Shown in pieces: positions 1-33,229 of a stretch of 33,229 nt of DNA. Made by a program: the position numbers and the translations under genes. How positions within the stretch are numbered: position 1 is the stretch's first letter; each line of letters starts with the position of its first letter. The stretch comes from an uncultured Aquitalea sp. (GTDB taxonomy: Bacteria; Pseudomonadota; Gammaproteobacteria; Burkholderiales; Chromobacteriaceae): assembly GCF_945957525.1 (NCBI RefSeq), contig NZ_CAMFLA010000031.1, positions 1-33,229 on the forward strand, given 5' to 3'. Under the pieces are notes generated by a model, which saw only the letters and a list, made by a program, of their open reading frames with translations, was not told where the DNA came from and made no database searches.

Positions 1-10
1 GCCAACCTTG
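1..10 (+). repeat. Truncated copy of the CTTCGGCCAACCTTG repeat word at the window edge
   Basis: The first ten bases, GCCAACCTTG, equal the right part of the 15-base word found complete at 31107-31121 and in both halves of the palindrome at 877-908. The left part would lie outside the window, so membership of the family cannot be confirmed here. Confidence 0.4.
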
Positions 11-241
11 GGCCGGGCTCTGTATGGGAGCTTATATATAGACAGGCGGCATGAGGAGCTGAGACGGATATCCTGTACTGAGCCTCCTCGAACTCCGTGG
101 GCGCGCTATCCGATGCGACCGGGAATCGCCCGGCATCGTCAGGGCTGCCGTTGGCTTGCTATGCTTCTCCTCTTTGTCGACGCCGCCATGCGCCTGCCAG
201 GCTGTCGGCGGCATCTCGACATGTATATAGAGGTATATGGT
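11..241 (+). other. Upstream region of the HAD phosphatase gene, with a hairpin
   Basis: No convincing gene is seen in this stretch. The frame of the downstream gene stays open back to position 8, but that extension (rich in Arg and Pro, no domain) looks non-coding. A stem can form at 111-138: CGATG pairs with CATCG and CCGGG with CCCGG, with a small bulge. An AT-rich segment (TTATATATA, 32-40) could hold promoter elements, but I cannot assign a -35/-10 pair with confidence. Confidence 0.35.
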
Positions 242-244
242 TTG

Positions 245-871
245 TTGACTGAACCGATCTGGATTTTCGATCTCGACGACACCCTGCACAACGCCAGCCG
301 GCGCATCTTCCCTTTTATCAGCGCACAGATGAACCGTTATATGGAAGAGCAGTTGGGGCTGGATGCGGAAACGGCCAGGCAGTTGCGTATTCGTTACTGG
401 CATCGCTACGGCGCGACGCTGAAAGGTTTGACCTTGCACCACGGGGTGGAGGCTGCGCACTTTCTGCGCGAAACGCACCCGGTATCGGAAATGCTACCGT
501 GGCTGGAGTGGGAAAAGTCGCTTGCCGACACCCTGCGTCGTCTGCCTGGCAAGAAGGTGCTGTTCTCTAACGGGCCGATTCACTATGTGGATGCATTGAC
601 CGAGCACATGCGCATATCACGCCACTTTCATGCTCGCTACGGCATGGAATCGGTGAGGCTGCTGCCCAAGCCCGCCCTGCGTTCTTTCCGACGCGTATTG
701 TCAAAAGAGGGACTGAACCCGGCGCACTGCGTCATGGTGGAGGATTCGCTGCCGAATCTGGCGGCGGCCAAGCGGCTGGGCATGAAGACGGTATGGCTGA
801 GTACGCAGTGCCGACTGCCTGCATATGTGGATCACCGCATCGGCAAGATCCGCGACTTGCTGCGTTTGTAG
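245..871 (+). CDS. HAD-superfamily pyrimidine 5'-nucleotidase
   Basis: Predicted cytosolic HAD phosphatase of the pyrimidine 5'-nucleotidase (Sdt1-like) type, which dephosphorylates pyrimidine nucleoside monophosphates in salvage or clean-up. With the chosen start the protein is 208 residues. HAD motif I is IFDLDDT (residues 7-13), where the first Asp is the nucleophile and the second the acid/base. Motif II is the SNGP segment, and the conserved Lys and motif III/IV are in KPALRSF and VEDSLPNLAAAK. The start is a TTG (245, or 242), chosen because AGAGG lies at 229-233 with good spacing and family proteins begin just before WIFDLDDT. An ATG at 221 lacks a good ribosome site. The gene converges on the Cds1-like gene, and a 32-base palindrome separates them. 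Family assignment is firm; the exact substrate is inferred. Confidence 0.88.
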   Translation: MTEPIWIFDLDDTLHNASRRIFPFISAQMNRYMEEQLGLDAETARQLRIRYWHRYGATLKGLTLHHGVEAAHFLRETHPVSEMLPWLEWEKSLADTLRRLPGKKVLFSNGPIHYVDALTEHMRISRHFHARYGMESVRLLPKPALRSFRRVLSKEGLNPAHCVMVEDSLPNLAAAKRLGMKTVWLSTQCRLPAYVDHRIGKIRDLLRL

Positions 872-876
872 TACGA

Positions 877-908
877 CCTTCGGCCAACCTTGCAAGGTTG
901 GCCGAAGG
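877..908. repeat. Perfect 32-base palindrome: inverted pair of the repeat word, probable bidirectional terminator
   Basis: Bases 877-892 (CCTTCGGCCAACCTTG) are exactly reverse-complementary to 893-908, with no spacer. Each half is a full copy of the word that recurs through the window. It sits 5 bases after the stop of the HAD gene and 12 bases before the stop of the convergent Cds1-like gene. A 16-bp stem there could stop transcription from both sides, although neither side has a long T run. Inverted pairs of uptake sequences serve as terminators in Neisseria, so the arrangement is suggestive. Confidence 0.8.
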
Positions 909-920
909 AATGGGGACGAC

Positions 921-1976: not shown

Positions 1977-2035
1977 GACGCCACCGAATGGTTATGAATT
2001 AATAGCCAATCATTCTAACGCTACGCGCCGCAATA

Positions 2036-2062
2036 AAAAAAGCGCCCCGCAGGGCGCTTTTT
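2036..2062 (-). terminator. Rho-independent terminator of ompW
   Basis: GCGCCC (2042-2047) pairs with GGGCGC (2052-2057) around a CGCA loop, extended by A/T pairs and flanked by A and T runs on both sides. It lies about 20 bases after the ompW stop. The symmetry of the runs means it could also act on plus-strand transcripts. Confidence 0.9.
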
Positions 2063-2082
2063 GCATATCGCAGGTTCTGGAA

Positions 2083-4753: not shown

Positions 4754-4765
4754 CTTCGGCAAACC
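4754..4765 (+). repeat. Copy of the repeat word (CTTCGGCAAACC) between yggL and its terminator
   Basis: This intergenic copy is of the A-variant of the CTTCGGC(C/A)AA family and starts 3 bases after the yggL stop codon. Because it lies outside any gene it cannot be explained by codon choice. Confidence 0.7.
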
Positions 4766-5479: not shown

Positions 5480-5935
5480 TCAGCTACCACGCCGTCGGTA
5501 CAGCAAAGCGTGCTCGGGCAGATATTCCGCCAGCGGCCCCTCGCGTATGTCCGCACCCAGCAATTGCTCTAGCGGCTTCAGGTAGGCATCCGCCTCGAAC
5601 CACTCATCCGGCCGCTCTACCCGACGCAAGCGCACCCGCTGCCTCCGGTAGCCATCGGGCTGATCCACCCGTTCCAGACTGTCCATCCGGGCCAACTGTT
5701 CGGCAGTCACCAGATACACCTCGCCGCTCACCGGAAAACCATGGCCAGGCTGCGCCACCAGCCAGGGCGAGTGGCGATCTCCCACCAGATACAAGGGGTA
5801 GGCCTCGCCAGTAACGAAATCACCCTCCAGCCGCAGCCCCGGATTGCTGCCGGCATTGGGGAAACCCGCCTTGAGCGTGCCAAAGACGAATACCGGCGTC
5901 AGGGCTAGCGCCTCCTTCGGCAAACCTTGTTCCAT
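5480..5935 (-). CDS. Gamma-glutamylcyclotransferase-like (GGCT/AIG2) protein
   Basis: A 151-residue protein of the gamma-glutamylcyclotransferase-like fold. It has the opening motif VFVFGTLKAG (15-24), which forms the 5-oxoproline cavity, and the catalytic Glu in MDSLE (Glu88), followed by DGYRRQ. The pattern is close to gamma-glutamylamine cyclotransferase and bacterial YtfP-like proteins, which cleave gamma-glutamyl compounds to release 5-oxoproline. Substrate is unknown. Start ATG 5935 is preceded by GAGGTG. It lies 30 bases after the small Cys-rich gene and probably shares its transcript. Its fifth to tenth codons contain a copy of the repeat word (5915-5929, minus-strand sense), encoding part of QGLPKE. 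Confidence 0.85.
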   Translation of the reverse strand: MEQGLPKEALALTPVFVFGTLKAGFPNAGSNPGLRLEGDFVTGEAYPLYLVGDRHSPWLVAQPGHGFPVSGEVYLVTAEQLARMDSLERVDQPDGYRRQRVRLRRVERPDEWFEADAYLKPLEQLLGADIREGPLAEYLPEHALLYRRRGS

Positions 5936-8029: not shown

Positions 8030-8941
8030 TCATGACACCGGCTGGTAGCGCGCCGACAAAAATGCCCAAAAGGCCTCCAGCTCTGGGCGGCTGCGCTTTC
8101 TGTCGCCGTAGAGACGCACTTCCATGTCCACCGTCCAGCCGCTCTCCGCCGCCGGCAGCAACTGGCCGGATCGCCGTTCCCGCGTGACCGAACTGTCGGG
8201 CAAAAACGCCACACCATGGCCTTCCAGCACCATATTCTTCAGACCTTCGGCCATATCGGTTTCGTAGCGCAGCGCCAGGCGGGCCGAGGCAGGCGCTTCA
8301 TCCAGGATGAGGTCGGTCATCAGACGGAAATAGGCATTGCTGGCATAACCGAGAAACGGTACCGCCGCCCCCGCACCGGGCAAGCAGAACAAAGGCTGCT
8401 TGTTCTCGCCCTTGCGACTGTACGGCCGCAGGGTTTCCACGCCGAGTTTCAGGCCGACATAACGAGGGTCGGTCAGCTCGATCGGCTGCTTGGGGTGGTG
8501 GTAACACATGAGAAAGTCGCTGCCGCCTTCCACAAAGGCCAGCAAGGCGTCATGCACATTGCTGGCCTGCAGTCGGCAAGCAGGTTGGCCGAAGCCGCGC
8601 TCTACCTCGCTCCACCACTTGGGAAAATAAGAAAACGACAGCGTATGCGGCACAGCAAAGCTGAGCGTGCCCTCAGGCAAAGGTTGCATACCGCGCAACT
8701 GCGCACGGGTGCTGTTGATCTGCGCCAGCATGGTGGCGGCTTGTTCGCGCAACAACTCTCCCGCCGCCGTCAGGCGGGTGGGATAGGTGGTACGGTCGAT
8801 CAGATCCGCCCCCAGCCAGCTTTCCAGCGATTTGATGCGGCGCGAGAATGCCGGCTGGGTAAGATGGCGGATTTCCGCCGCCCGCGTGAAGCTGCCGGTA
8901 TCAGCCAGCACCAGGAAGTCCTCAAGCCAACGCGTTTCCAT
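8030..8941 (-). CDS. LysR-family transcriptional regulator (HypT/YjiE-like), probable aspA regulator
   Basis: A 303-residue LysR-type regulator. The N-terminal winged helix-turn-helix is METRWLEDFLVLADTGSFTR through AAEIRHLTQPAFSRRIKSLE (residues 1-40), followed by the linker helix. The effector domain begins near residue 92 (GTLSFAVPHTLSFSYFP). The first residues and the AVPHTLS segment recall E. coli HypT (YjiE), a hypochlorite-responsive member, but a specific oxidant role cannot be claimed. No membrane segments. ATG 8941 has a weak purine-rich ribosome site. Same strand as aspA and 134 bases upstream; the gap carries a LysR-type box. The ligand is unknown. Confidence 0.88.
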   Translation of the reverse strand: METRWLEDFLVLADTGSFTRAAEIRHLTQPAFSRRIKSLESWLGADLIDRTTYPTRLTAAGELLREQAATMLAQINSTRAQLRGMQPLPEGTLSFAVPHTLSFSYFPKWWSEVERGFGQPACRLQASNVHDALLAFVEGGSDFLMCYHHPKQPIELTDPRYVGLKLGVETLRPYSRKGENKQPLFCLPGAGAAVPFLGYASNAYFRLMTDLILDEAPASARLALRYETDMAEGLKNMVLEGHGVAFLPDSSVTRERRSGQLLPAAESGWTVDMEVRLYGDRKRSRPELEAFWAFLSARYQPVS

Positions 8942-9095: not shown

Positions 9096-10244
9096 ATGAG
9101 AATCACACACACTATCTGGCGCCGCGTGCTCGGTCTGATGCCCGGCGAGATAGCCGCCGATGAAACCGGCTGGCTGATCAGTCCACACCAGCACATGCCC
9201 CTGCTGCTGCAACGCAGGGCGATGATGCTGGTAAACCGGGTGCGCTTGTTCGCCTTCCTGTTTGCCGTGCTCACCCCGATGTGGATCGTGGTGGACATCC
9301 TGACCCTGCCCGATAGCCTGTGGCATCAGTTAGCGCTATTGCGCCTGTTCGCCACGCTGGCTTTCAGCGCGTTGGTGATGTGGAACCCACAGGACGGTCA
9401 GTTGCCCCGCGCCTATCAGGGCATGGCGGTGTTGTTCGCCATCCCGACGTTGTTCTACATCGGCTCGCATCTGATCATGGCCAGCCACCATTTGCAGGGC
9501 GCGTCCGCCGCGGTCGGCACCGGTTACGCCTTCCTGCCCTTTGTGCTGATGGCCGCGTTTGCCATCTTCCCGCTCACCCTGCTGGAAAACCTGGCCTTCG
9601 CCACGCCGGTGCTGGCGGCCTATGCGCTGGCCTGGGCGCTCAATTGGCAGGTAGCCAGCTGGCCTTCCTTTGGTGGCGAATTCTGGTTGCTGTCCTTGCT
9701 GGCGGCCGTGTCGTCGCTGGCCAGCATGAGCCAGCTGGCCTTTATCATCGCGCTGGTGGGCCAGACCATCCGCGACCCGCTCACCGGCGCGTTTTCTCGC
9801 CGCAGCGGTATCGAGATGCTGGAGCTGCAACTGGTGAACGCCGAGCGCGCCGGCGCGCCGCTGAGCGTGGCCTTCATCGACATCGATCACTTCAAGTCCA
9901 TCAATGACGAGCACGGCCACGCCGCCGGCGACAAGGTGCTGAAAAAGCTGACCCAGCAGATCGGACAGTGCATGCGACGCGGCGATGTACTGGTGCGGTG
10001 GGGCGGCGAGGAATTCTTGCTGCTGATGCCCGGCACTGATCTGGTACAAGCCTGGCAGGCGGTGAACCGGCTGCGCAACAACGGCTTCGGCCAACGTCCG
10101 GACGGCACGCCGCTGACCGCCAGCATTGGTTTGGCCGAACGGCTGGCGGACAAACTCAATCAGCGCCGGCCGCTGGTGGAGCTGGCCGACCAACGCATGT
10201 ATCAGGCCAAACAACAGGGCCGCGACCGGGTAATCAGTCGCTAG
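9096..10244 (+). CDS. Membrane-bound diguanylate cyclase (GGDEF domain)
   Basis: A 382-residue diguanylate cyclase, which makes cyclic di-GMP from two GTP. The N-terminal half has about six membrane helices (roughly 50-70, 80-97, 108-129, 144-160, 167-184 and 196-222), with no extracytoplasmic domain long enough to name, so it is an integral-membrane sensor of unknown input. The cytoplasmic GGDEF domain starts at RDPLTGAFSRR (226-236), has DIDHFKSINDEHGHAAGD (262-279) for metal/GTP binding, and the active-site variant GGEEF (303-307). An RxxD inhibitory site (Arg294-Asp297) is five residues before it, so product feedback is expected. ATG 9096 has no strong ribosome site. A TACAAT box at 9064-9069 may be its -10. 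Divergent from the LysR gene. Confidence 0.92.
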   Translation: MRITHTIWRRVLGLMPGEIAADETGWLISPHQHMPLLLQRRAMMLVNRVRLFAFLFAVLTPMWIVVDILTLPDSLWHQLALLRLFATLAFSALVMWNPQDGQLPRAYQGMAVLFAIPTLFYIGSHLIMASHHLQGASAAVGTGYAFLPFVLMAAFAIFPLTLLENLAFATPVLAAYALAWALNWQVASWPSFGGEFWLLSLLAAVSSLASMSQLAFIIALVGQTIRDPLTGAFSRRSGIEMLELQLVNAERAGAPLSVAFIDIDHFKSINDEHGHAAGDKVLKKLTQQIGQCMRRGDVLVRWGGEEFLLLMPGTDLVQAWQAVNRLRNNGFGQRPDGTPLTASIGLAERLADKLNQRRPLVELADQRMYQAKQQGRDRVISR

Positions 10245-10271: not shown

Positions 10272-12170
10272 TCAGCGCTGCCCGGCTTCCTGCAGGGCCA
10301 CCCAGTCCTGGGTATGCGGCGCGGCGCGGAATTCATGCACCGCGCGCTGCATCAAGGCAAAGGCCGTCGGCGCATCCAGCCTGCGGCAAGCGTCGCCCAG
10401 TTCATTCATCAGCGCTTCCAGCTCCGCTTGCGGCAGGTGGTATTCCTGAGCGCGCAGGATGCGGGCGTGATCGGTCGGCAACACGTTGTCACCGATCAGC
10501 AGCTCCTCGTACAGCTTCTCACCCGGCCGCAGCCCGCTGAAGCGGATTTCTATATCCCCGCCCGGATGGCGCTCGTCGCGCACCTCCAGCCCCGACAGGT
10601 GCACCATGCGCCGCGCCAGATCGGCAATCTTCACTGGTTCGCCCATGTCCAGCACGAACACATCGCCGCCCTCGCCCATCGCGCCGGCCTGGATCACCAG
10701 TTGCGCCGCTTCCGGGATGGTCATGAAGTAACGAGTGATGTCCGGATGGGTGACGGTTACCGGCCCGCCGGCCTTGATTTGCTTCTTGAACAGCGGCACC
10801 ACCGAACCCGAACTGCCCAGTACATTGCCAAAACGCACCATGACGAAGCGGGTGCGGCTGCCGGCCGCATGACGGCTCTGCAGGGTAAGCTCCGCCAGCC
10901 GCTTGGTGGCGCCCATCACATTGGTGGGACGCACGGCCTTGTCGGTGGAGATCAGCACAAAGGTATCCACCCCACTGGCTTCAGCGGCACGGGCCGTGGT
11001 ATCGGTGCCGAAGGCGTTGTTGAGAATGCCCGCCACCGGATTGTGCTCCACCATCGGCACATGCTTGTAAGCGGCGGCGTGGTAGACGGTTTCCACCTTG
11101 AAGGCGCTGAGTATCTGGCACAGTCGCTCATAGTCGGTAACCGAACCCAGCACCGGCGTGCGCGGGATGTCCGGCGCCAGCGAGCCCAGTTCGTGATCGA
11201 TGGCGTATAGCGCGTATTCCGACAATTCAAACAGCACGATGCGCGACGGATTATTGCGTACGATCTGCCGCACCAGCTCGGAACCGATGGAGCCGCCGGC
11301 CCCGGTAACCATCACCACCCGTCCCTGGATGTTGCGCGCCAGCAATTCCTGCTTGGGCGGCACCGGATCGCGGCCGAGCAAGTCCTCGATTTCCACTTCC
11401 TTCAGTTCTTCCACCCGCGCTTCGCCGGACACCAGATCGGCCATGCCGGGCAGTCGCTTGATGGGTACGCGCAGGCTTTCCAGCGATTCGAGGATCTCCC
11501 GCTGGCGACCGCGGCTGACCGAGGGCATGGCCAACAGGATGCTCTTGGCTTCGGTTTCCTCGATCAGCAGCGGCAGGTCTTTGGGCGCATGTACCGATAG
11601 GCCGCGGAAGGTGCGCTTCCAGCTGTCGGGGTTGTCGTCCACAAAGGCCATCGGCCGGTACTCCTTGCCCGCCTGCAAAGCCAGCATCAGCTGCACCCCG
11701 GCCTGGCCCGCGCCGTAGATGATGACGTGCTCGCGCGGGGCATCTACTGCGTCCAGCCGGCGCACGATGCCGCGCAGCACGAAGCGGCTGCCGCCGATAT
11801 AGGCCATGGCGAACATCCAGAAGATGATGATGGACGAGCGGGGAAACGGCCCGATGCGGGCCATGACGATGACGGCGGTGAGCACCAGCACGGCGAGACT
11901 GACGCCGGTAAAAACGGTGTAGACGATCTTGTCGTCGAGGAATTTCAGCACCGCGCGGTACAAACCCAGCTTCACGAAGATGGGAATCACCCACAGCGGC
12001 GGCACGATGAAGATCCACAGATACGGGTCGAGTTTCGGGTCCCAGTAGCCGCCCAGCCTCAGCACCACGGCGCTCCACAGCGCCAGCGGCAGCAAAAGCG
12101 CGTCCATCAGCGCCAAGAGCGCCATCTTGTTGTGACGTGAAAAGGTCAGCAGTTTGTCTAGCATGTCCAT
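10272..12170 (-). CDS. Membrane nucleotide-sugar 4,6-dehydratase (WbpM/PglF/CapD type)
   Basis: A 632-residue protein of full WbpM/PglF length. Four N-terminal membrane helices (about 15-38, 50-72, 84-104, 111-128) are followed by a CoA-binding-like Rossmann domain (GAGQAG, 153-158) and the catalytic SDR domain (GAGGSIGSE, 290-298). The active site has STDK (408-411), and Met419 in VMGATKR stands where other SDRs have Tyr, a hallmark of this dehydratase group. The enzyme turns UDP-GlcNAc into the 4-keto-6-deoxy sugar on which the ArnB/PglE-like aminotransferase of the cluster can act. Start ATG 12170 (ATG 12164 also possible). Last gene of the glycan operon; a repeat word lies between it and the sugar transferase gene. 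Confidence 0.93.
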   Translation of the reverse strand: MDMLDKLLTFSRHNKMALLALMDALLLPLALWSAVVLRLGGYWDPKLDPYLWIFIVPPLWVIPIFVKLGLYRAVLKFLDDKIVYTVFTGVSLAVLVLTAVIVMARIGPFPRSSIIIFWMFAMAYIGGSRFVLRGIVRRLDAVDAPREHVIIYGAGQAGVQLMLALQAGKEYRPMAFVDDNPDSWKRTFRGLSVHAPKDLPLLIEETEAKSILLAMPSVSRGRQREILESLESLRVPIKRLPGMADLVSGEARVEELKEVEIEDLLGRDPVPPKQELLARNIQGRVVMVTGAGGSIGSELVRQIVRNNPSRIVLFELSEYALYAIDHELGSLAPDIPRTPVLGSVTDYERLCQILSAFKVETVYHAAAYKHVPMVEHNPVAGILNNAFGTDTTARAAEASGVDTFVLISTDKAVRPTNVMGATKRLAELTLQSRHAAGSRTRFVMVRFGNVLGSSGSVVPLFKKQIKAGGPVTVTHPDITRYFMTIPEAAQLVIQAGAMGEGGDVFVLDMGEPVKIADLARRMVHLSGLEVRDERHPGGDIEIRFSGLRPGEKLYEELLIGDNVLPTDHARILRAQEYHLPQAELEALMNELGDACRRLDAPTAFALMQRAVHEFRAAPHTQDWVALQEAGQR

Positions 12171-12193: not shown

Positions 12194-12208
12194 CAAGGTT
12201 GGCCGAAG
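12194..12208 (-). repeat. Full-length intergenic copy of the repeat word (CTTCGGCCAACCTTG on the minus strand)
   Basis: CAAGGTTGGCCGAAG on the plus strand equals one complete half of the palindrome at 877-908. It stands in the 40-base gap between two operon genes, outside coding sequence. Confidence 0.75.
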
Positions 12209-12210: not shown

Positions 12211-12876
12211 TCAGCGCTTCACGATTTTCAGCAAGGTGGCGAAGATGATGCGCACATCCTCCGCCAGCGAATGCGTTTGGGCGTAACGCACGTAATAAGC
12301 CAGCTTTTCCGGTAGCACCTCGTCAATGTAGGCCTGCTCCGGGTCCGCCGCTTTGCCCAGTATCTCGTTCTCGTCGATCATGCGAATCGACGCCCAGTCG
12401 GTAATGCCCGGGCGCACCGACAGCACGATGTCCCGCACCTCATCCGGATAGTGGGCCACATACTTGGGCACCTCCGGACGCGGACCGACCAGGCTCATGT
12501 CGCCATACAGCACATCCAGCAACTGCGGCAGCTCGTCGATCTTGCTCTTGCGCAAGAAGCGGCCGGCGCCGGTAACGCGGCTGTCCGCGCCCACGGTGAG
12601 TTGCCCCTGGCGCTCGGTATTCACCTGCATGGTGCGGAATTTGTGAATGCGGAACAGACTGCCGCCGCGCCCCACCCTCACCTGCCGGAAAAACACCGGA
12701 CCGGGCGAATCCAGCTTGACCCACAGAGCCACCGCCAACAGCACCGGCGACAGCGCGACCAGCCCGGCCAGCGCCGCGCAGAAATCAAAACACCGCTTCA
12801 GCAGCCGGGAGCCATGCCCCGGCGGCTGGCAGCAAGGCGGCAACAAGGCCGGCTTGCCCTTGCCCTGCGCGCTCAT
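12211..12876 (-). CDS. Undecaprenyl-phosphate sugar-1-phosphate transferase (PglC-like)
   Basis: A 221-residue monotopic phosphoglycosyl transferase that would start glycan assembly by moving a sugar-1-phosphate from UDP-sugar to undecaprenyl phosphate at the inner membrane. It has a single re-entrant membrane helix (about 28-55), HKFRTM (79-83), the catalytic Asp-Glu pair in [15 protein letters not shown] (Asp114-Glu115) and MSLVGPRPE (127-135). Its small size, without extra membrane helices, matches PglC/WecP-like members. An additional N-terminal tail of about 25 residues is rich in Pro, Lys and Cys. The ATG overlaps the stop of the aminotransferase gene as ATGA (12873-12876), so translation is coupled. 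Confidence 0.93.
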
Positions 12877-14122: not shown

Positions 14123-15214
14123 TCACGCTGGCAGCCTGGCCGACAACTGTTTGCCGAAGCGCTGGGTCGGCAACTCCACCCAGCGGTGAATGGCTTGCGC
14201 CAGGCACCAGGTAAGGGCAATGGCCGCCAGCGCCAGCAACCACCAGGGCAGGCCGTAGTCCGCCAGCCACTCCATCAATACATAGCCGACATTGGAATGG
14301 CAGACATACCAGGCGTAACTGATCGCCGCCACCTTCGCCAGCCCTTCGCGCTCCCACCAGGCGGGCCGCCACAAGGCCAGGCCAAACAGGCCGATGCCAA
14401 TCAGGTAGCTGGCATACAGCGCCGGGGAGTGCCAGCCGGTCAGCGCCACAAACAGCCCCAGCAGGCCAGCGACATGCAGCAGGGTCTCCAGTCGGCCTGC
14501 GGCTCCAGTCAGCCAGAAATAACACCAGCAGCCGGCAAACATCAGCGGGAAGTAGCACACCTCCGGCGCCAGATAGAATCTGCCGTACAGCCACCAGGTA
14601 GCGAAGGGTTCGGGAATCTCCAGCGACTCCGGCCCCAGCGCGATGACCGTCACCACCGGCAACAGGCACCACAGCGCGGGCTTGATCCGCCTTCCGCACA
14701 AGGCAAAGGCCGTGCCGACAAAGGCGTAGAACCACAACTCCACTTTCAGCGTCCACATTACCGGGTCGATGTTGCGGCCGCCCAGCATGTCCTGAAAGGC
14801 GATGCTGACATGACCCATCACATCCCGACGGGTGATGTCGTAGTCGGCTTCGGCCAACCACGCCGCCGTCCACAAGGCCAGCAGCGTCAATGCCAGCCCC
14901 ACCCAATAGGTGGGGTAGATGCGGAAGAAGCGGGTCAGCGCAAAGCGGGCCAGACTCATGCGCGACAGCGACAAGGGAATCAGCAGCCCGGAAATCATCA
15001 GGAACAACCCCACCCCCACCGCGCCAAGATTGAAGGGCAAGGCGAAAGAGGCACCATCGTACGCCTCCAGGGGCGGCATGTTGAGGATGTCGCTGATTCT
15101 TTCTCTTTGCAGCCAGAAGGTTTGCGTGAAATGAAACAGGATCACGCAGAGAATCGCCATACCGCGCAAGCCGTCGGCGAAACCGAAACGCAAGTGTTGC
15201 TTGTTGCTGCTCAT
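14123..15214 (-). CDS. Acyltransferase 3 family membrane protein (O-acyltransferase)
   Basis: A 363-residue integral membrane protein of the acyltransferase 3 family (OafA/NodX/WecH type) with about ten helices. The family opening is [18 protein letters not shown], where the conserved His is in LFHF, followed by [11 protein letters not shown] and [15 protein letters not shown]. Such proteins add O-acyl groups, often acetyl, to surface sugars, which fits a glycan locus. Start ATG 15214 is preferred because the protein then opens with a short cytosolic tail; ATG 15247 is possible. It could be mistaken for a polymerase because of the many helices, but the motifs are those of acyltransferases. 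Confidence 0.88.
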
Positions 15215-15295: not shown

Positions 15296-15769
15296 TTAGC
15301 GACGGCGCTCGTCTTCGGCAAACCCCGCGCCCAGCTCGAAGTCAGCCGGGTTGTGGACAAATACGGCATCGTCCGTAGTACTGCTTGAGGCGCGCCGCCT
15401 TTTCACCGCCATTTCCACCAGCGTCAGCGGCAGAAACAGCAGCACGAACACCACGCCACCCAGCACGTGCCAGTGGGCCAGCGCCTTCAACCACGCCGGC
15501 GCGGGCTGCCCGCCGCCGCCGTATTTGTCCCAGTAAAACAGGCAACCGCAAAATAGGCCAAACCAGACCGCCAGCAAATAACGCTGCGCCAGCGTCCGTT
15601 CATGCCAACTGCACCAGCCATAGAGCGCAACGCAGACCGTGGCCAGCGCCGCGCCCCAGACAAAGCCGGCCTGCAGCAGCAGGGACATCAGCACCATGCT
15701 GAAGAAGAATGCGGCACAGCCCGCTGCCAGTTTCAGCAGCCACAGGCTGACTCGCAGCAGCGCGCGCAT
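15296..15769 (-). CDS. Small membrane protein of unknown function in the glycan operon
   Basis: A 157-residue protein that I cannot place in a family. It has about four hydrophobic helices (roughly 5-25, 28-50, 62-80, 98-118) and a hydrophilic, acidic C-terminal tail. ATG 15769 is three bases after the glycosyltransferase stop, so it belongs to the operon. It is too short for a Wzy polymerase. A copy of the repeat word lies in its last codons (15313-15324). Confidence 0.7.
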   Translation of the reverse strand: MRALLRVSLWLLKLAAGCAAFFFSMVLMSLLLQAGFVWGAALATVCVALYGWCSWHERTLAQRYLLAVWFGLFCGCLFYWDKYGGGGQPAPAWLKALAHWHVLGGVVFVLLFLPLTLVEMAVKRRRASSSTTDDAVFVHNPADFELGAGFAEDERRR

Positions 15770-19440: not shown

Positions 19441-20496
19441 TCACAGCTCGCCATACAAGGCGGCGAAGCGGCGCATATTACTGTCATGCAACGCCTTTTG
19501 CGCCACCAACTGGCGGTTGGTGGCGGCGATGACCGCCAATTGCGCGTTGTCGTCCGCCTGCGTCATGGCGTCCATCAGGCTGTCGCCCAAGCGGTGCATG
19601 TCTTCCACGATCACGCCATTGAGGCCGTCTATCACCCATTCACCGTTGGCAGGCAGGTTGGACAGCACCGGCAGGCAGCCGTGACCCATGGCCTCCAGCA
19701 GGCTGATGCTGGTGGCGTCGGAGCGGGGCACGCTGACAAACAGGCGGGAGCGTGCGTACAGGCTGCCCAGCACCGCCGAAGAGACGAAGCCGGTAAATTC
19801 GACCCGCCGCAAACCCAGCCGCTCGGCCATGGTCTTCAGACTGTCGGTGGACTCTCCGCTGGCCGCCACGGTCAGCGACCAGTCGTCAAACCGCCCGGAA
19901 GCCTCCACCAGCGCCCAGGCTTGCAGGATGACGTCGATGCGATACAAGGGTTTGTGCAGGCGGCAGGACAGCACCTGTTTGTGCTTGGAGGCCATATCCG
20001 GGAGGGGCGGCAGGCTGTCCATGCCGAAATTCAACACGCTGATGCGGCAGTCTTCGCCGGCCAGCTCGCGAATGCGCGCCGCCATGTACAGCGAGTCGGA
20101 CGTGATCAGCCGCGCGGCCTTGAGATTGTCGCTCACCATGCGCCGCATCAAGGCGTTGCTGTCCGGCAGCAACAGGATGTCCGAGCCCCAACACGTCAGC
20201 ACCATCGGCGTCTTGCTGCCTTTCAGCGCGCGGCGCGCATGCCAGGCCACGCTATTGGCCTGATGCACATGCACCGCATCGGGCTGCGCTTCGGCCAACA
20301 GGCGGCGCAGGCGAGCGGCGGTGCCCAGCGCCTTGAGGCCGAAATCCACCCGCAGTACGCCGCGCAGGTTGGCGGGCCGGCGCTCGGCCGGCACCTCGCC
20401 GTTGCTGGCCAGCCAGATCTCGTCCACATGCGGAGCGATGCCGGCTAAATAGCGCCAGGTGTGCACGGAAGCGGAGCCGATCAGTAACAGCTTCAT
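19441..20496 (-). CDS. Glycosyltransferase, GT-B fold (family 4-like)
   Basis: A 351-residue glycosyltransferase. It begins MKLLLIGSASVHTWRYLAGI, with AVHVHQANSVAWHARRAL and VLTCWGSDILLLPDS in the first domain, and VEFTGFVSSAVLGSLYARSR and SISLLEAMGHGCLPVLS in the donor domain, where the Glu of LLEAMGHG corresponds to the family EX7E region. ATG 20496 overlaps the stop of the upstream aminotransferase (ATGA, 20493-20496) and has GAAGGA before it. Specificity unknown. Confidence 0.88.
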   Translation of the reverse strand: MKLLLIGSASVHTWRYLAGIAPHVDEIWLASNGEVPAERRPANLRGVLRVDFGLKALGTAARLRRLLAEAQPDAVHVHQANSVAWHARRALKGSKTPMVLTCWGSDILLLPDSNALMRRMVSDNLKAARLITSDSLYMAARIRELAGEDCRISVLNFGMDSLPPLPDMASKHKQVLSCRLHKPLYRIDVILQAWALVEASGRFDDWSLTVAASGESTDSLKTMAERLGLRRVEFTGFVSSAVLGSLYARSRLFVSVPRSDATSISLLEAMGHGCLPVLSNLPANGEWVIDGLNGVIVEDMHRLGDSLMDAMTQADDNAQLAVIAATNRQLVAQKALHDSNMRRFAALYGEL

Positions 20497-25924: not shown

Positions 25925-26989
25925 TCAGTAATCCAACGGCAGGCTGACGCGACGACCGTCGCGGGCCGACAGGTACATGGCGATGAGCAGCTCCAGCGAC
26001 TTCAGGCCTTCGCGACCATCGGTTTCCGGCTCGGCCTTGCCCTGCATCACATTGATTACGTTGTCGTAGTACAGCGGATGACCAAAGCCGTACACGCTGG
26101 TGGTGGCGTAGCTGGCGTTCTTGATCTCTTCGTCCATCGCGTGGCCTTCGGCAAACTCCCAGTGCTGGATCTCGTTCACCGCGACGCCGCCGACGCGCAC
26201 ACTGCCCTTCTCACCCAGAATCGTGATGGAGCCTTCCAGGTTCTTGGGGTAAGTGAGCATGGTGACATTCATGCTGCCCAGCGCGCCGGAGCGCCATTTG
26301 ACGCTGACAGTGCCGGTGTCTTCCACTTCGATGTTGCGCGCCAGCGTGGCCGTGTAGGCCTGCACGCTTTCCACCGGGCCGATCAGCCAGTCCAGCAAAT
26401 CCACATAATGGCTGGCCTGGTTCATGAATGCGCCGCCGTCGAATTCCCACGTGCCGCGCCAGCCGGCCGCATCGTAATACTCTTGCGGGCGGGTCCAGAA
26501 CACGTTGACGTTCACCATGTAAATCCGGCCAAAACGCTTTTCGGCTACCGCGCGCTTCAGCAGCTGCAGGGTGTCGTTGCGACGGTTTTGTTTCACCACG
26601 AACAGGCGCTTGCGGGCGCGATCGGCGGCTTTCACCATGGCAAGGCCATCTTCCCAGCGGGTGGCCATCGGCTTTTCCGTCATCACGTGAAAGCCGGCTT
26701 CGGAACACTCGATGCTCTGGGCCGGATGCAGGCCGGAGGGGGTGGTCAACACGATGATGTCGGCGTTGGTGCTGGCCAGCATGTCGGTGAGATTGCCGTG
26801 GCCGCGCGCGCCGGTGCGCTCGACGGCGGCCTTGAGGGCGGCCGGGTCAATGTCGCAGACATCCACCAGCTCGGCGCGGTCGGCGTGCTTTTCCAGCGAG
26901 CCGAAATGGTTGTTGGCGATACGGCCGCAACCTACCAGCGCGAAACGGATCTTGCGGTCGGTAATGGCGACATGATGTACGGTTTGCAT
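25925..26989 (-). CDS. wbpB: WbpB-like UDP-N-acetylglucosaminuronate 3-dehydrogenase
   Basis: A 354-residue Gfo/Idh/MocA oxidoreductase. The Rossmann motif is ALVGCGRIANNHF (17-29), EKPMA (105-109) contains the catalytic Lys106, and the substrate-binding block includes GGAFMNQASHYVDLL. It oxidises C3 of UDP-GlcNAc-uronate with NAD, giving the 3-keto sugar for WbpE. ATG 26989 has GGGAAG upstream. It follows wbpA after a gap holding a terminator-like hairpin. About 35 residues longer than the Pseudomonas protein as I recall it, mostly at the two ends. Confidence 0.92.
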   Translation of the reverse strand: MQTVHHVAITDRKIRFALVGCGRIANNHFGSLEKHADRAELVDVCDIDPAALKAAVERTGARGHGNLTDMLASTNADIIVLTTPSGLHPAQSIECSEAGFHVMTEKPMATRWEDGLAMVKAADRARKRLFVVKQNRRNDTLQLLKRAVAEKRFGRIYMVNVNVFWTRPQEYYDAAGWRGTWEFDGGAFMNQASHYVDLLDWLIGPVESVQAYTATLARNIEVEDTGTVSVKWRSGALGSMNVTMLTYPKNLEGSITILGEKGSVRVGGVAVNEIQHWEFAEGHAMDEEIKNASYATTSVYGFGHPLYYDNVINVMQGKAEPETDGREGLKSLELLIAMYLSARDGRRVSLPLDY

Positions 26990-27062: not shown

Positions 27063-28370
27063 TCAAGCCTTGACGATGTGATCGGCCGGTTCCAGATACT
27101 TGCCGCGGCTGTCCACGATCAACTGTGCATGCTGTTTCAGCTGCGCGTAGTCGAACTTGTCGTGGTCGGTAGCCAGCAGCACGCAATCGTAGGCGGCGAT
27201 GCTCTCTGCGGTCAGCGGCACGCTGGACAGCTCGAAGTGGTGCTCGCGCATCTTGGGGAACACCGGCACGTGCGGATCGCTGTAGGACACGTCCGCGCCC
27301 AGATCGCGCAGTTTTTCCATCAGGAACACCGACGGGCTTTCGCGCATGTCGTCCACGTTCTTCTTGTAGGCGATGCCCAGCACCAGCACGCGGCTGCCGT
27401 TGATGGCTTTCTTGCGCGTGTTCAGCGCGGCGGCCACCTTGCTCACCACCCAGTCCGGCATATTGCTGTTCACTTCGCCTGCCAGCTCGATGAAACGGGT
27501 ATTGACGCCGTATTCGCGGGCTTTCCAGGTGAGGTAGAACGGGTCGATCGGGATGCAGTGACCGCCCAGGCCCGGGCCCGGATAGTAGGGCACGAAGCCG
27601 AAAGGCTTGGTGGCGGCGGCGCGGATCACTTCGTGAATGTCGATGCCCATGCGGTCGGCGACGATCTTCATTTCGTTGACCAGGCCGATATTGACCGCGC
27701 GATGAATGTTTTCCAGCAGCTTGGTCATTTCAGCGGCGCGGGTGGAGGACACCGGCACCACTTTATCGATCACCGCGCCGTAGAGCGCCACACCGATTTC
27801 CTGGCAAGCCGGGGTCACGCCGCCGCACACCTTGGGAATGGTGCGGGTGGTGAAATTCGGATTGCCCGGGTCTTCGCGCTCCGGCGAGAACACCAGGAAG
27901 GCGTTGTCGCCCACCTTCAGGCCGCGCGATTCGATGCGCGGCAGCAGTTCTTCGTCGGTGGTGCCCGGATAGGTGGTGGACTCCAGCGACACCAGATGGC
28001 CTTCGCGCAGGAAGGGCACCAGGCTGTCGATGGTGTTGAGCACGAAGCTCAGATCCGGCTCGCGGTATTTGTTCAGCGGGGTCGGCACGCACAGAATCAG
28101 GGTGTCGGCTTCCGGCGCGCGGGAGAAATCGGTGGTGGCTTCAAAGCCGCGGGTCAGCGCGGTGGCGATACTGTCGCCGGAGATGTGCTCGATGTAGCTC
28201 TTGCCGGCCATCAGGGCGTCGACCTTGCTCTGGTCGATATCGAAGCCCAGCACTTTGTAGCCCACTTCGGCAAAACGCAGCATCAACGGCAGGCCGACAT
28301 AGCCCAGGCCCACGATGCCGATGACGGCGGATTTGTCCGCAATACGGTTAAGCAGTTGCTGCTTGATCAC
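27063..28370 (-). CDS. wbpA: WbpA-like UDP-N-acetyl-D-glucosamine 6-dehydrogenase
   Basis: A 435-residue nucleotide-sugar dehydrogenase that oxidises the C6 hydroxyl of UDP-GlcNAc in two NAD-dependent steps. The NAD-binding GLGYVGLP is at 21-28, [16 protein letters not shown] at 93-108, the Lys/Asn active-site helix at [15 protein letters not shown], and the catalytic Cys in [11 protein letters not shown] (Cys272). Start is a GTG at 28370; no in-frame ATG with a ribosome site lies nearby. First gene of the glycan operon, with a leader of about 145 bases from a good -10 box. WbpA, WbpB, WbpE and WbpD together complete UDP-GlcNAc(3NAc)A. Confidence 0.95.
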
Positions 28371-28581: not shown

Positions 28582-29382
28582 TCACACCACCAGATGCCCC
28601 GCCGTGCTCTGGTTGGTCATCTTCAGGCGCTGCACGAACTCGCCAAACTCCAGGCCGAAACGGCCTTCCAGCTCGTCAGCGCGTTTTTTCAGCGCCTCCC
28701 ACTGGGTGAGCGTCGGGCTCTGACGGAAAGCCATCACCGCCACATTGCCGTGGCTGGCGGCCGGCAGTTCGATGACGCGGCCTTCAAACACCGTCAGCAG
28801 GCGGTCGATGAAGGCGTTGTAGCGCTTGTCTCCGCTCCACCAGTTGGCCACGAACACCCCCTTGGGGCTGAGCGCGTTGCGGCAGTCATCGAAAAACGAT
28901 TCCGTGGTCAAGGCGTCGACAATCTGCAGGCCGTCAAATCCGTCCACCAGAATGGCATCGGTGGAGCCGCGGAAAATCTTCACATAGTCCGCGCCGTCGG
29001 CCTCGACAATCTCGAAGAAGTCGCCTTCTTCGGGCAACTCGAAATAGGCGCGCGCCACGGCGATCACTTGCGGGTTGATATCCACCGCCACACTCACCGC
29101 GTCCGGCAGGTATTCGTCAATGAAGCGGGCGAAAGAACCGCCGCCAAGCCCGATTTGCAGGATGTGGCGCGGATCGTCGTTGAACAGCAGAAAACCCATC
29201 ATGGCGCGACTGTAAGACAGCACCAGATCTGCCGGCTCGTCCAGGCTCATCGAGCTCTGGATGGTTTCCGAGCCCAGATGCAGGGAGCGAATGCCGTCCG
29301 CTTCGGAAATTTCCACTTCCGGCATGTCTGCCACGGCGCCGCGCACGCGGCGGCGGAACGGATGCAAAGCCTTACGCGCCAC
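28582..29382 (-). CDS. Spermidine synthase-like (PABS-fold) methyltransferase-type protein
   Basis: A 266-residue protein with a spermidine-synthase-like Rossmann domain: [15 protein letters not shown] (74-88) for the nucleotide, [14 protein letters not shown] (98-111) and [11 protein letters not shown]. Where genuine aminopropyltransferases have the polyamine-site DSSDP-type motif, this one has [10 protein letters not shown] (145-154), so it may not make spermidine. Start is GTG 29382, which overlaps the ttcA stop by 11 bases and has GGGAGAGGG upstream; the first 20 residues are Arg-rich. Translation is probably coupled to ttcA. Confidence 0.82.
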
Positions 29383-30352
29383 AGCTGCCCTCTCCCGCCG
29401 GTTTGCGTGAATCCAGGATGCTGATGGTGCGGCGGCGCGGCGCTTCGGCCAACCCTTCGCCGTCTTCCGTCGGCGGCGTCGGATCGCGGAATTCTTCCTT
29501 GTCGAAAGCGGTATCGCCGCCTTCATAGGGGTTTTCACCGGTCTTGAGGCCGACAAAATCAAACAGGCCGGTATCGGCCAGATGCGAGGGCACCACGTTC
29601 TGCAAGGAGCGGAACAGGGTTTCCACCCGACCCGGGAAACGACGATCCCAATCGTTGACCATTTCCTTCACCACCTGCCGCTGCAGATTGGGCTGCGAGC
29701 CGCACAGATTGCACGGAATGATGGGGAATTCGCGCAATACGGCGTAGCGTTCGATGTCCTTCTCGCGGCAATAGGCCAGCGGGCGGATCACCATGTGGCG
29801 GCCGTCGTCGGACACCAGCTTGGGCGGCATGGCCTTGAGCTTGCCGCCGTAGAACATGTTCAGGAACAGAGTATGCAGGATGTCGTCGCGGTGGTGGCCC
29901 AGCGCAATCTTGGTGGCCCCCAGCTCGTCGGCCACGCGGTAGAGAATGCCGCGGCGCAAGCGCGAGCACAGGCTGCAGGTGGTTTTGCCTTCCGGCACCA
30001 GCCGCTTGACAATGGAATAGGTGTCTTCTTCGACGATGCGGTATTCCACGCCGATGGACGCGAGGTAGCCCGGCAACACGTCTTCCGGGAAGCCCGGTTG
30101 TTTCTGATCGAGATTGACGGCAACGATGGAAAAATCGATGGGCGCGGATTTTTGCAGGCCCAGCAGGATATCCAGCAGGGTGTAGCTGTCCTTGCCGCCC
30201 GAGAGGCAGACCATGACGCGGTCGCCCTCTTCGATCATGTTGAAATCGTTGATGGCGTCGCCCACATGGTGGCGCAGCCGCTTGGCGAGTTTATTGCCTT
30301 CAAAGACGGCTTTTTTGGCCTTCTCGTCGAGCACGGCGTTCTGTTCGGACAT
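29372..30352 (-). CDS. ttcA: TtcA, tRNA 2-thiocytidine(32) synthetase
   Basis: A 326-residue tRNA-thiolating enzyme that converts cytidine 32 in certain tRNAs to 2-thiocytidine, using ATP and an Fe-S cluster. The PP-loop SGGKDS is at 51-56. The cluster/sulfur cysteines are in [12 protein letters not shown] (Cys126 and Cys129) and PCNLCGSQ (Cys214 and Cys217). [21 protein letters not shown] is the conserved ATPase-side helix. The C-terminal 60 residues are variable and acidic. ATG 30352. Overlaps the downstream spermidine-synthase-like gene. Confidence 0.96.
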
Positions 30353-30564: not shown

Positions 30565-30590
30565 AAGGCCGGGCAGGGGAGACCGGCCTT
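30565..30590 (-). terminator. Hairpin at the end of the pteridine reductase-like gene
   Basis: AAGGCCGG (30565-30572) is the inverse of CCGGCCTT (30583-30590), with ten bases between. The stem includes the stop codon of the SDR gene. No T run follows on the minus strand, so it is a weak terminator or a 3'-end stabiliser. From here to 30398 I see no gene. Confidence 0.4.
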
Positions 30591-31338
30591 ACAGCACGAT
30601 GCTGCGACCGCCATCCACCGGCAGGATCTGCCCGGTAATGTAATGGGCGTCCAGCAACAGGAAAGCCACCGCCACCGCCAGATCATCCGGCACGCCGGTG
30701 CGTTGCAGGGGAATGCTGGCTTCGATGGCGGCGCGCTCGGCGACGTCAAAAGACGCTTCGCTCTCCGGCCACAGATTCACGCCCGGCGCCACGCCGTTGA
30801 CGCGCACCTGCGGCGCCAGCTCAATGGCCAGGCTGCGAATCAGCTGGGCATGACCGGCCTTGGCCAGGTTGTAAACCAGATGCCGCTTCATCGGTCGGTC
30901 CACATGGATATCGGCAATGCCGACGATCGCGCCGCGCCGGCGTTGCAATTCCGGCGCCAGCGCCTGGCTGAGAAACAGCGGCGCCTTGAGGTTGCTGCCC
31001 ATCAAATCCTGCCAGGCCGCCTCGTCCACCTCGCCCACTTCCGTCGGAAAAAAGCTGGACGCGTTGTTCACCAGGCAATCAATGCGTCCGAACGCCGCCA
31101 AGGCGTCTTCGGCCAACCTTGCCACGGCCGCCATATCCAGCAGATCAGCCTGCGCCAGCGCCGCAGAAGCCGGTCGCTTGGCATTGAGCTCGTCCGCCAA
31201 GGCCTGCGCCTCAGCCGCCGAGCCGCGGTAATGCAGCACCACGCGCAAACCGCGCTCATGCAGCCGGCGGGCAATGCCCGCGCCCACGCGCCGCGCCGCG
31301 CCAGTAACCAACACCACCCGTTCTTCACGAATGTCCAT
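30589..31338 (-). CDS. Pteridine reductase-like short-chain dehydrogenase (FolM/PTR1 type)
   Basis: A 249-residue SDR. The NADPH motif is TGAARRVG (12-19), the TGX3RXG form seen in pteridine reductases rather than the usual TGxxxGxG. NNASSFFPT follows, then an Asp in ADIHVD where classical SDRs have Ser, YNLAKAG (catalytic Tyr and Lys), and the final QILPVDGG. It probably reduces dihydropterins or dihydrofolate. ATG 31338 has GGAGG upstream and lies 11 bases after the stop of the secreted-protein gene, so the two are cotranscribed. A full copy of the repeat word is inside the gene at 31107-31121. Confidence 0.88.
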   Translation of the reverse strand: MDIREERVVLVTGAARRVGAGIARRLHERGLRVVLHYRGSAAEAQALADELNAKRPASAALAQADLLDMAAVARLAEDALAAFGRIDCLVNNASSFFPTEVGEVDEAAWQDLMGSNLKAPLFLSQALAPELQRRRGAIVGIADIHVDRPMKRHLVYNLAKAGHAQLIRSLAIELAPQVRVNGVAPGVNLWPESEASFDVAERAAIEASIPLQRTGVPDDLAVAVAFLLLDAHYITGQILPVDGGRSIVL

Positions 31339-31349
31339 CGCCGCCTCCG

Positions 31350-31871
31350 TCAACCCGCGCTCAGACAAGGCGCCAGCGTTGGCTGCCAGCCGGCGCGATC
31401 GGGCAGCGGAAACCGCGCCTGCAACTGTCCCTGGCGGCGCGTGGCGCCGTCCACTTGCAGCAGCAGCGCCATATGCGGCGGTTGCGCCAGCGTCAACAAC
31501 TTGCCGTCGCTTTCCCAACCGATGACAAACTGGCTCGCCGTGGCGTACCAGCCGGCAAAATGTTGCTCCTCCACCTTGCGCAAGCCTTCCAGCTTGAGCT
31601 GCAATTTGCGCTTTTCACCCAGACCGCCCGGGCCCTCGAAAGGTTTCGGATCCCACTTGAGCCCGGCGGGCAAAGCCATTTCCAGCCTCAGCTTATGGCC
31701 GCCGCCCAGGCAAGCCAGCTTCAATTCGACAGGAAAGCGCTGGCGTACCAGCACCAGCTCGCCCTTGAACGACACCTCCGGCTGCGCCGGCGGCGCAACG
31801 CTCTCCCCTTCGGCCAACGCCAGCGCAGGCATCAGCAAGACAAACGCCATACCACGGTAAAATCGGTTCAC
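31350..31871 (-). CDS. Predicted secreted protein of unknown function
   Basis: A 173-residue protein that I do not recognise. It begins with a signal peptide (NRFYRGMAFVLLMPALALA, cut before EGESV). The mature part is rich in beta-type stretches and Leu, and has two Cys (in LACLGG and LAPCLSAG) that could form a disulfide. Start is GTG 31871 with AGGAG five bases upstream; the long open frame before it is antisense to the methyltransferase gene and is rejected. Likely periplasmic. A TACAAT box (minus strand, 31918-31913) is a candidate -10. Confidence 0.75.
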   Translation of the reverse strand: MNRFYRGMAFVLLMPALALAEGESVAPPAQPEVSFKGELVLVRQRFPVELKLACLGGGHKLRLEMALPAGLKWDPKPFEGPGGLGEKRKLQLKLEGLRKVEEQHFAGWYATASQFVIGWESDGKLLTLAQPPHMALLLQVDGATRRQGQLQARFPLPDRAGWQPTLAPCLSAG

Positions 31872-31931
31872 CCTCTTCTCCTTGGACGCGGTTTCGCCCA
31901 CAATCGCCGCACATTGTAGCAGGATGCACCC

Positions 31932-33086
31932 ATGACCACCCTTCCCGCCCCCAGCGCCGACGCGCTGGCCACCAGCCAGGCTCTCTGTCGGCGCATTGCC
32001 GACGCCATTCGCGCCGAAGGCGGCTGGATTCCCTTTTCCCGTTATATGGAGTTGGCGCTGTACGCGCCAGGCCTGGGTTACTACTCGGCGGGCAGCTGCA
32101 AGCTGGGCAGCGCCGGGGACTTCACCACCGCGCCGGAGATGTCGCCCTTCTTCGGCCGCACGCTGGCCCGCCAGCTCGCGCAGATCCTGCCGCAAACCGC
32201 CGGCGACCTGTACGAATTCGGCGCCGGCACCGGCAAGCTCGCCATCGACATCCTGACCGAGCTGGAACGGCTTGACGCGCTGCCGCGGCGCTACGTCATC
32301 CTTGACCTGTCGGCCGACCTCATCGAGCGCCAGCAAAGCGCCATCCGTGCAGCGCTGCCGCACCTGGCCGCTCGCGTGGTGTGGCGCGACAGCCTGCCGG
32401 ATCAGATTGACGGCGTCGTCATCGGCAATGAAGTGTTGGACGCCATGCCGTGCGAGCTGCTGCACTGGACGCCCCAACCCATGCTGCGTGGCGTGACGCT
32501 GAACCCTGAAGGCGGCTTCCAATGGGAAGACCGACCGCCTACCGATACGCAACTGATCCGCCTGGCCGCCGACACCGGCGTTAACGACAGCGACTACACC
32601 AGCGAAATCAGCCTCGCCAATCGCGCCTTCATCCACACGCTGGCGTCCCGCCTGGCGCGCGGCGGCATCATCCTCATCGATTATGGCTACCCTGCGGCGG
32701 AGTACTACCATCCGCAACGCCATATGGGCACACTGATCGGCCATTACCGCCACCACACCGTGGACGACCCCTTCTATCTGCCCGGCCTGATGGACCTCAC
32801 CTGCCACGTGGACTTCACCGCCATCGCCCAATGCGGCATCGACGCCGGGCTGGACCTCATCGGCTACACCACCCAGGCGCAGTTCCTCGTCAATGCCGGC
32901 ATCACCCGGCTGCTGCAAGAACTGGACGCCGCCGACAGCGCCAGCTACCTGCCGCAAGCAGCCATGGTGCAGAAACTGCTGTCGATGCAGGAAATGGGCG
33001 AACTCTTCAAAGTGATCGGCTTCGGCAAACAGGTGGATATCCACTGGCAAGGCTTTCTGGATGGCGACCGCTGCCATACCCTGTGA
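31932..33086 (+). CDS. SAM-dependent methyltransferase, MidA/NDUFAF7 family (DUF185)
   Basis: A 384-residue class I methyltransferase of the family that includes mitochondrial MidA/NDUFAF7, a protein arginine methyltransferase for complex I assembly. Bacterial targets are not settled. The N-terminal block GGWIPFSRYMELALYAPGLGYYS and GDFTTAPEMSPFFG (63-76) are family hallmarks. The SAM loop is YEFGAGTGKLA (94-104), then GNEVLDAMPCELL and ILIDYGYPAAEYYHP. ATG 31932 with AGGA upstream. Divergent from the secreted-protein gene by 60 bases. A repeat word lies near its end at 33020-33030. Confidence 0.92.
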   Translation: MTTLPAPSADALATSQALCRRIADAIRAEGGWIPFSRYMELALYAPGLGYYSAGSCKLGSAGDFTTAPEMSPFFGRTLARQLAQILPQTAGDLYEFGAGTGKLAIDILTELERLDALPRRYVILDLSADLIERQQSAIRAALPHLAARVVWRDSLPDQIDGVVIGNEVLDAMPCELLHWTPQPMLRGVTLNPEGGFQWEDRPPTDTQLIRLAADTGVNDSDYTSEISLANRAFIHTLASRLARGGIILIDYGYPAAEYYHPQRHMGTLIGHYRHHTVDDPFYLPGLMDLTCHVDFTAIAQCGIDAGLDLIGYTTQAQFLVNAGITRLLQELDAADSASYLPQAAMVQKLLSMQEMGELFKVIGFGKQVDIHWQGFLDGDRCHTL

Positions 33087-33114
33087 CGCCCTGCTCAAAA
33101 GCCGGAGATAGTGG

Positions 33115-33143
33115 TTGACAGGGTAAAAAACGCTGCGTATAGT
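33115..33143 (+). promoter_or_regulatory. Strong sigma70 promoter of the tRNA gene
   Basis: TTGACA (33115-33120) matches the -35 consensus perfectly, and TATAGT (33138-33143) follows after exactly 17 bases. The tRNA begins 31 bases after the -10 box. Confidence 0.92.
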
Positions 33144-33174
33144 TCGCCACTCGGTGTGAACGCATCGAAAATGT

Positions 33175-33229
33175 GGCGAATTAGCTCAGTCGGTTAGAGC
33201 GACGGAATCATAATCCGCAGGTCCGGGGT
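33175..33229 (+). tRNA. tRNA-Met (anticodon CAU), 3' end cut by window edge
   Basis: The acceptor 5' strand GGCGAAT is followed by TA, D arm GCTCAGTCGGTTAGAGC, G, anticodon stem ACGGA with loop ATCATAA (anticodon CAT), TCCGC, variable loop AGGTC and the start of the T arm (CGGGGT). The body resembles betaproteobacterial elongator tRNA-Met; a lysidine-modified tRNA-Ile2 cannot be fully excluded. One mismatch (A-C) sits at the top of the anticodon stem. About 22 bases including the T loop and 3' acceptor strand lie outside the window. Confidence 0.93.

Follow-up and report, generated by a model that had tools for sequence, protein, structure and literature searches.

Why does a contig of 33,229 nucleotides from an uncultured Aquitalea, called here the window in its whole length, repeat the ten-base word CTTCGGCMAA (M is C or A) so often, and is this word a DNA uptake sequence (DUS)? 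With one further base, CTTCGGC(C/A)AAC (GTT(G/T)GCCGAAG on the other strand) is, judging from sequence comparison, very probably a DUS-like uptake sequence that would be read by the minor pilin ComP and that would form a new branch of dialects. All 18 copies listed in a first-pass annotation of the window are present and exact, 13 on the plus and five on the minus strand, with one start moved from about 12198 to 12199. Dinucleotide shuffles of the window gave a mean of 0.21 copies and a maximum of two, and 18 was reached in none of 100, in agreement with the annotation's chance expectation of well under one copy. The near-matches (about 10131, 21298 and 24741) are single-letter variants with the first base altered, and the window begins with GCCAACCTTG, as expected of a cut copy at position 1. 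The longer form CTTCGGCMAACCTTG was seen five times, and the neisserial word GCCGTCTGAA, which the annotation had not seen, is absent from the window.

The source genome (G000; 4.05 Mb in 35 contigs, 100% complete and 0% contaminated) carries 825 + 801 = 1,626 copies versus 33 + 20 = 53 for the reversed control; the 11-mer CTTCGGCMAAC occurs 1,518 times versus eight for its control. We also analysed a 433-kb sample (10.7% of the genome), made up of the window and 20 stretches from 16 other contigs, each stretch of which holds 4 to 18 copies. In this sample the list of over-represented k-mers is led, for k = 8–12, by the word or by parts of it, as the first-pass annotation had anticipated. The consensus of 245 copies of TTCGGCMAA is CTTCGGC(C 67%/A 33%)AAC, followed by a weaker C and T and nothing further that is conspicuous, and conservation fades within about 13 bases. 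Within the 433 kb, intact CTTCGGCCAAC was observed 129 times, where 0.53 would be expected; the A variant follows with 48 occurrences, and no other one-letter variant has more than 14. With its roughly 1,600 copies in G000, this short word looks like a self-recognition tag by which DNA of its own kind would be taken up.

Related bacteria use altered words, with a core unlike that of the known Neisseria tags. Among 61 Chromobacteriaceae genomes, we counted as word-bearing those in which one word had more than 200 copies and was over six times as frequent as its control, a cut-off set in this analysis. The genera are coded, with g1 being Aquitalea (G000 and nine congeners, including Aquitalea pelogenes) and g2 Chromobacterium (including Chromobacterium amazonense); g4 includes Crenobacter luteus, g5 Crenobacter oryzisoli (G035), and g9 Pseudogulbenkiania ferrooxidans 2002, which we take to be the strain with the older name Lutiella nitroferrum 2002. 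One of three words is carried by 23 of the 61 genomes: all 22 in g4, g5, g6, g8, g9 and g10 and one of the ten in g1, but none of 19 Chromobacterium, four g3 or six g7 genomes. CTTCGGCMAA itself, with its 1,626 copies in G000, reaches 968 in g6, 221 and 735 in g5, 847, 206 and 724 in g9 and 424 in g8, and occurs 29–93 times, often about twice its control, in the remaining family genomes. Words of the TTCGGCCAAC type are carried by g5, g6 and g9. The g10 word, TGCGGCCAAC, has 1,871 to 2,895 copies in 13/13 genomes and the g4 word, CTCGGCCAAC, 1,940 and 1,590 copies in 2/2, both having first been found by de novo word counts in fetched stretches. The related genera, with which the first-pass annotation had proposed a comparison, hold genus-specific sister words sharing the core CGGCCAAC, which is common to all of them. 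Its term 'new dialect' stands in so far as the word is distinct from known dialects, but is too weak for at least three words that all lack the CTG core.

Sharing of a dialect among related species is uneven: 13/13 genomes in g10, 2/2 in g4, 3/3 in g9 and 2/2 in g5 (one borderline), but 1/10 in g1. The borderline word-bearers are G044, described below, G046, which is 84% complete, and G035, which mixes two words (221 CTTCGGCMAA and 165 CTCGGCCAAC) and is perhaps a genome in dialect change. Two g7 genomes hold CTCGGCCAAC at four to five times its control (92 and 85 copies). De novo counts gave no dominant word in three Aquitalea congeners (200 kb), two Chromobacterium (80 kb), one g3 genome (40 kb) and one g7 genome (26 kb). 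Where G000 word sites could be aligned with the sampled congener DNA, the intact word is kept in 0/10 distinct places, three of which align poorly around the site. Among 399 genomes sampled evenly from the order, a draw that fell outside the g5, g8 and g9 genomes, the 11-mer exceeded 41 copies only in G000 (1,518, the highest) and G037 (767). An rpoB tree of 28 of the 61 family genomes joins G000 to seven other Aquitalea as their sister (100/100), places the genus next to Chromobacterium and requires at least three changes in word presence. G000 thus branches deeply within the genus to which Aquitalea pelogenes belongs.

The ComP-like minor pilin that the first-pass annotation had proposed to look for was found by structure-profile search, profile matches and a tree. 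Four pilins of G000 match the Pfam family ComP_DUS, and all four were searched against solved structures; the contig 9 pilin (75207–75596) alone has neisserial ComP on top (2m3k at E ~2e-10, 5hz7 and 2nba). The pilin on contig 14 was rejected as ComP: it has the strongest ComP_DUS match (81.5 bits), but its best solved match is PilE (4noa). It adjoins an open reading frame (ORF) of 1,277 amino acids, taken as PilY1. The other two were also rejected, with major pilins ranking first among solved structures. A ComP profile made from nine proteins of the contig 9 type, two of them from word-less congeners, retrieved the solved structures of ComP with values of 3e-17 to 1e-15 and matched 57 of the 61 family genomes at 82 bits or more. 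The remaining four, all from g3, reach 58–61 bits and have neither ComP nor words. All 23 word-bearing genomes have a match (at least 86 bits), and so do all 19 Chromobacterium genomes (at least 107 bits, C. amazonense included). The latter result is at odds with Frye 2013 (PMC3630211), where a BLAST search is stated to have detected no ComP in C. violaceum, a species not identified among the 19. The channel protein ComEC is also encoded in G000 (342.7 bits) and lies above the cut-off in 57 of the 61 family genomes.

In the ComP tree, which includes 17 of the 23 word-bearers, a 100/99 branch splits 53 ComP rows, from 47 of the 61 family genomes and six neisserial ones, from 14 other pilins. 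Absent are G009, G014, G015, G025, G029, G032, G049, G050, G053 and G057 (not fetched, or missed by the pilin pattern), G030, G031, G044 and G054 (extracted protein not clearly an ortholog) and the neisserial genomes G069, G295 and G324 (missed by the pattern); Silvimonas G067 and Chitinimonas G068 (48–60 bits) were used as other pilins, not as ComP rows. By cysteine counts, the outer part of ComP has mostly two cysteines in the family rows, with three in G000 and G059 and four in G042, and four in 5/6 neisserial rows, with two in G233. Unlike most neisserial ComP, which has two disulfides, one of them tying the DD region, the family protein mostly has one outer cysteine pair. The two-cysteine genome G233, which carries king and sim DUS words, also scores highest among neisserial genomes against the chromobacterial ComP profile (123 bits) and is a possible intermediate. 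Two further observations concern individual matches: the one in G038 of g7 (C1:465063–465458) contains one TGA, and the word-less Aquitalea congeners G003, G005, G007 and G008 have a second, weaker ComP-profile match of 113–121 bits.

Could the word instead be the site of an abundant DNA-binding protein, a terminator or a small mobile repeat with no role in uptake? In the 433-kb sample, where a simple gene caller left 14.7% of the DNA outside genes, 145 of 187 copies lie inside called genes, which bears out the claim of a mostly intragenic word. The 42 copies outside genes or across gene ends are an upper bound, because one or more likely genes escaped the caller (as at the copy at 31808). Some copies do form inverted pairs between genes, as at 878–907 in the window, which would suit a terminator or a protein site. 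Such pairs, which the annotation had placed at gene ends, are present but rare, with five no more than 30 bases apart among the 187 copies, four of them between genes, and no T run was seen on the one side inspected. Because conservation ends within about 13 bases, the word is not a copied element. Another DNA-binding protein would explain the dialects and the ComP pattern less simply than uptake does, and, with most copies intragenic, we consider explanations of this kind quite improbable.

A Chi-like recombination signal (RecBCD/AddAB) or a KOPS-like segregation signal (FtsK) would also be short, frequent and intragenic. Chi and KOPS (FtsK orienting polar sequences) are over-represented short words that vary between species, which speaks for such a role here. 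They are, however, strand-polar along the replichore, and the word shows no local polarity. Of 166 neighbouring pairs in the G000 sample, 85 point in the same direction and 81 in opposite directions; a 75% polar signal predicts about 104 of the former (P = 0.002, as a local test on stretches). Neighbours of the 10-mer TTCGGCMAAC point the same way in 94 cases and different ways in 111, and same-direction neighbours are not in excess in five further genus sets either. The description of the word as strand-neutral is borne out by these neighbours and by the genome-wide split of 825/801. A run of plus copies on contig 1 had hinted at polarity, but the stretches of that contig are mixed and the run is an artefact of listing order. 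Nor would one expect a housekeeping signal to fall roughly 20-fold in congeners. Altogether, a Chi-like or KOPS-like role appears very improbable.

The word also occurs in different reading frames, as had been claimed, although unevenly: 90 of the 145 coding copies share one frame (antisense, encoding L/F-A-E), and 55 are spread over the other five with 3 to 21 each. The word is thus not restricted to one frame, and in its favourite frame it overrides codon use tenfold, with Leu-Ala-Glu (LAE) written as TTG-GCC-GAA in 85 of 175 cases in G000 versus 8.4 expected from codon use. The same spelling is found in 1/83 cases in Aquitalea congeners (3.5 expected) and 0/38 in Chromobacterium (1.9 expected), and in G033, whose own word ends in G, LAE is written as TTG-GCC-GAG in 30 of 58 cases versus 1.3 expected. 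Phe-Ala-Glu (FAE) as TTT-GCC-GAA shows a mild excess in congeners (5/11 versus 1.5 expected), which points toward codon bias. That the word is a by-product of codon pairs or of protein composition rich in Leu-Ala-Glu is barely credible, since the favoured frame and the FAE excess are outweighed mainly by the LAE codon choice, and also by the shifted excess in G033, the copies in other frames and up to 42/187 copies outside called genes.

The reading as a DNA uptake sequence, first put forward in the first-pass annotation, is supported by k-mer rank, frame spread, sister words, the ComP ortholog and ComEC, and suggests the following mechanism. ComP on the type IV pilus would preferentially bind free DNA with the word; after being drawn into the cell by way of ComEC, this DNA would be recombined. 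The word would spread through the genome because incoming word-bearing DNA is favoured, and such biased transformation would both maintain it and place it where protein constraint permits, mostly as L/F-A-E codons. Sister genera would in the same way use sister words with the common CGGCCAAC core. We infer binding by ComP and word-dependent uptake from this combination of word and genes.

A number of observations weigh against uptake by this route. ComP does not predict the word, because 34 of the 61 genomes, including the nine Aquitalea congeners, have a ComP match and none of the three words. The second disulfide of most Neisseria ComP proteins is missing in the family, by cysteine count. 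Net charge of ComP failed as a marker of word use, being +6 in G000, down to −4 in other word-bearers and up to +9 in word-less genomes. ComEC falls below the cut-off in three word-bearers, namely G057 and G058 of g10 (19–23 bits) and G044, where it is broken. The last of these genomes, 80% complete and 7% contaminated, has 424 copies genome-wide but one in the 32 kb fetched. Codon-atypical genes are not depleted of the word, which has 0.413 copies per kb in the quartile of genes with the least typical codon use and 0.366 in that with the most typical, and neither CTG nor CAG occurs in the three word types.

How close, then, is the word to known uptake systems? Like neisserial DUS, it measures 10–12 bp, lies on both strands and in genic as well as intergenic DNA, comes in genus-specific dialects, with densities of 0.24–0.96 per kb across genus sets, and is accompanied by an encoded ComP ortholog. 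Aligned without gaps, its reverse complement AGGTTGGCCGAA(G) agrees with simDUS and mucDUS in 9 of 12 positions and with AG-DUS in 8 of 12, and has CCG where their CTG core falls. Random words of like composition reach at least 9 of 12 in 1.8% of cases, with register and strand free. By itself this similarity is weak and only suggestive; together with the orthology of ComP, it makes a common origin with neisserial DUS likely but not certain.

We ran the same over-representation count on 40–102 kb stretches of five Neisseriaceae genomes as a positive control. Three of them yielded published DUS. N. wadsworthii gave wadDUS, at 24 copies per 40 kb sampled (the word in G000 has a density of 0.52 per kb), G112 gave AT-DUS, and G233 the king and sim DUS. 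The stretches of Snodgrassella alvi and G156 yielded no published DUS, despite ComP-profile matches in both. Snodgrassella alvi (G069) has a ComP-profile match of 99.8 bits and no dominant word in 80 kb, like Chromobacterium and crown Aquitalea.

In the literature, PMC3630211 describes eight dialects of neisserial DUS read by ComP, and PMC12061091 a CTG core kept in all eight; PMC10715097 is concerned with Neisseriaceae words. The present word occurs in Chromobacteriaceae, where the genomes tested in PMC3630211 are reported to be without obvious DUS (five genomes in all, including Lutiella nitroferrum 2002 and Pseudogulbenkiania NH8B). Among the papers searched, none was found to describe these words, either by subject or by exact 10-mers matched as whole words, a match that misses longer strings and supplements; Table S1D of PMC3630211, with over-represented 10-mers of Pseudogulbenkiania and Lutiella, may print one.

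The word also resembles the uptake signal sequence (USS) of Pasteurellaceae in being a genome-wide, strand-neutral repeat. Neither ACAAGCGGT nor AAGTGCGGT, the core of the other Pasteurellaceae USS subtype, is among the top over-represented words of the window or of the 433-kb sample. The words are unrelated to the USS ACAAGCGGT as quoted in PMC3630211, and the USS receptor is only predicted, as ComN/PpdA, in PMC12616744.

As to the history of the system, we lean somewhat towards an origin of ComP and DUS before the Neisseriaceae, in their common ancestor with Chromobacteriaceae, followed by a change of the CTG core, supposed to be indispensable, to CCG in one family and by erasure of sets of about 1,600 words in several lineages, G000 having kept its set. 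The erasing lineages would be crown Aquitalea, Chromobacterium, g3 and perhaps g7. If true, this would contradict the published account, which dates the rise of the system to a time after the C. violaceum lineage had split off. The best-known cases of sequence-specific uptake come from two bacterial families. Another family, having three or more words and ComP receptors to match, would offer natural variation in lock and key, and because both vary, the ComP–DNA code could be tested by swaps. The universality of the CTG core and an origin after the Chromobacterium split are put in doubt, and the contrast between nine word-less congeners and a single genome of about 1,600 copies gives a direct view of loss or gain of the system.

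Within the window, the copies at 878–887 (plus) and 898–907 (minus) are the arms of a perfect inverted pair between convergent genes. Two more copies lie outside called genes, as claimed: an A variant directly after the gene ending at 4750 (4754–4763, plus) and a minus-strand copy (12199–12208) between the genes 10272–12170 and 12211–12876. The peptides LAEA, GFGK, LRQT and GLPK named in the annotation are all found among the coding copies. Antisense copies, all on the plus strand, read LAEA at 14848–14857 (gene 14123–15214), 20289–20298 (gene 19441–20496) and 29443–29452 (gene 29372–30352) and LAED at 31107–31116 (gene 30589–31338). Antisense A variants, also plus, read GLPK at 5915–5924 (gene 5480–5935), FAED at 15313–15322 (gene 15296–15769), FAEG at 26146–26155 (gene 25925–26989) and FAEV at 28265–28274 (gene 27063–28370). 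Sense copies read GFGQ at 8585–8594 (minus; gene 8030–8941) and 10085–10094 (plus; gene 9126–10244), and sense A variants read RFGK at 14150–14159 (minus; gene 14123–15214), LRQT at 16867–16876 (minus; gene 15773–17008) and GFGK at 33020–33029 (plus; gene 31932–33086). The plus copy at 31808–31817 has no gene by the simple caller, but a minus-strand ORF there reads ...ALAEGE... and is probably coding, in the LAEG frame. At the right edge, an Rfam tRNA match (33175–33229) is cut by the end of the window, with none from ARAGORN. Judged from their translations, the genes between 10272 and 28370 resemble a surface polysaccharide locus, with sugar dehydratase/epimerase, aminotransferases, glycosyltransferases and a flippase.

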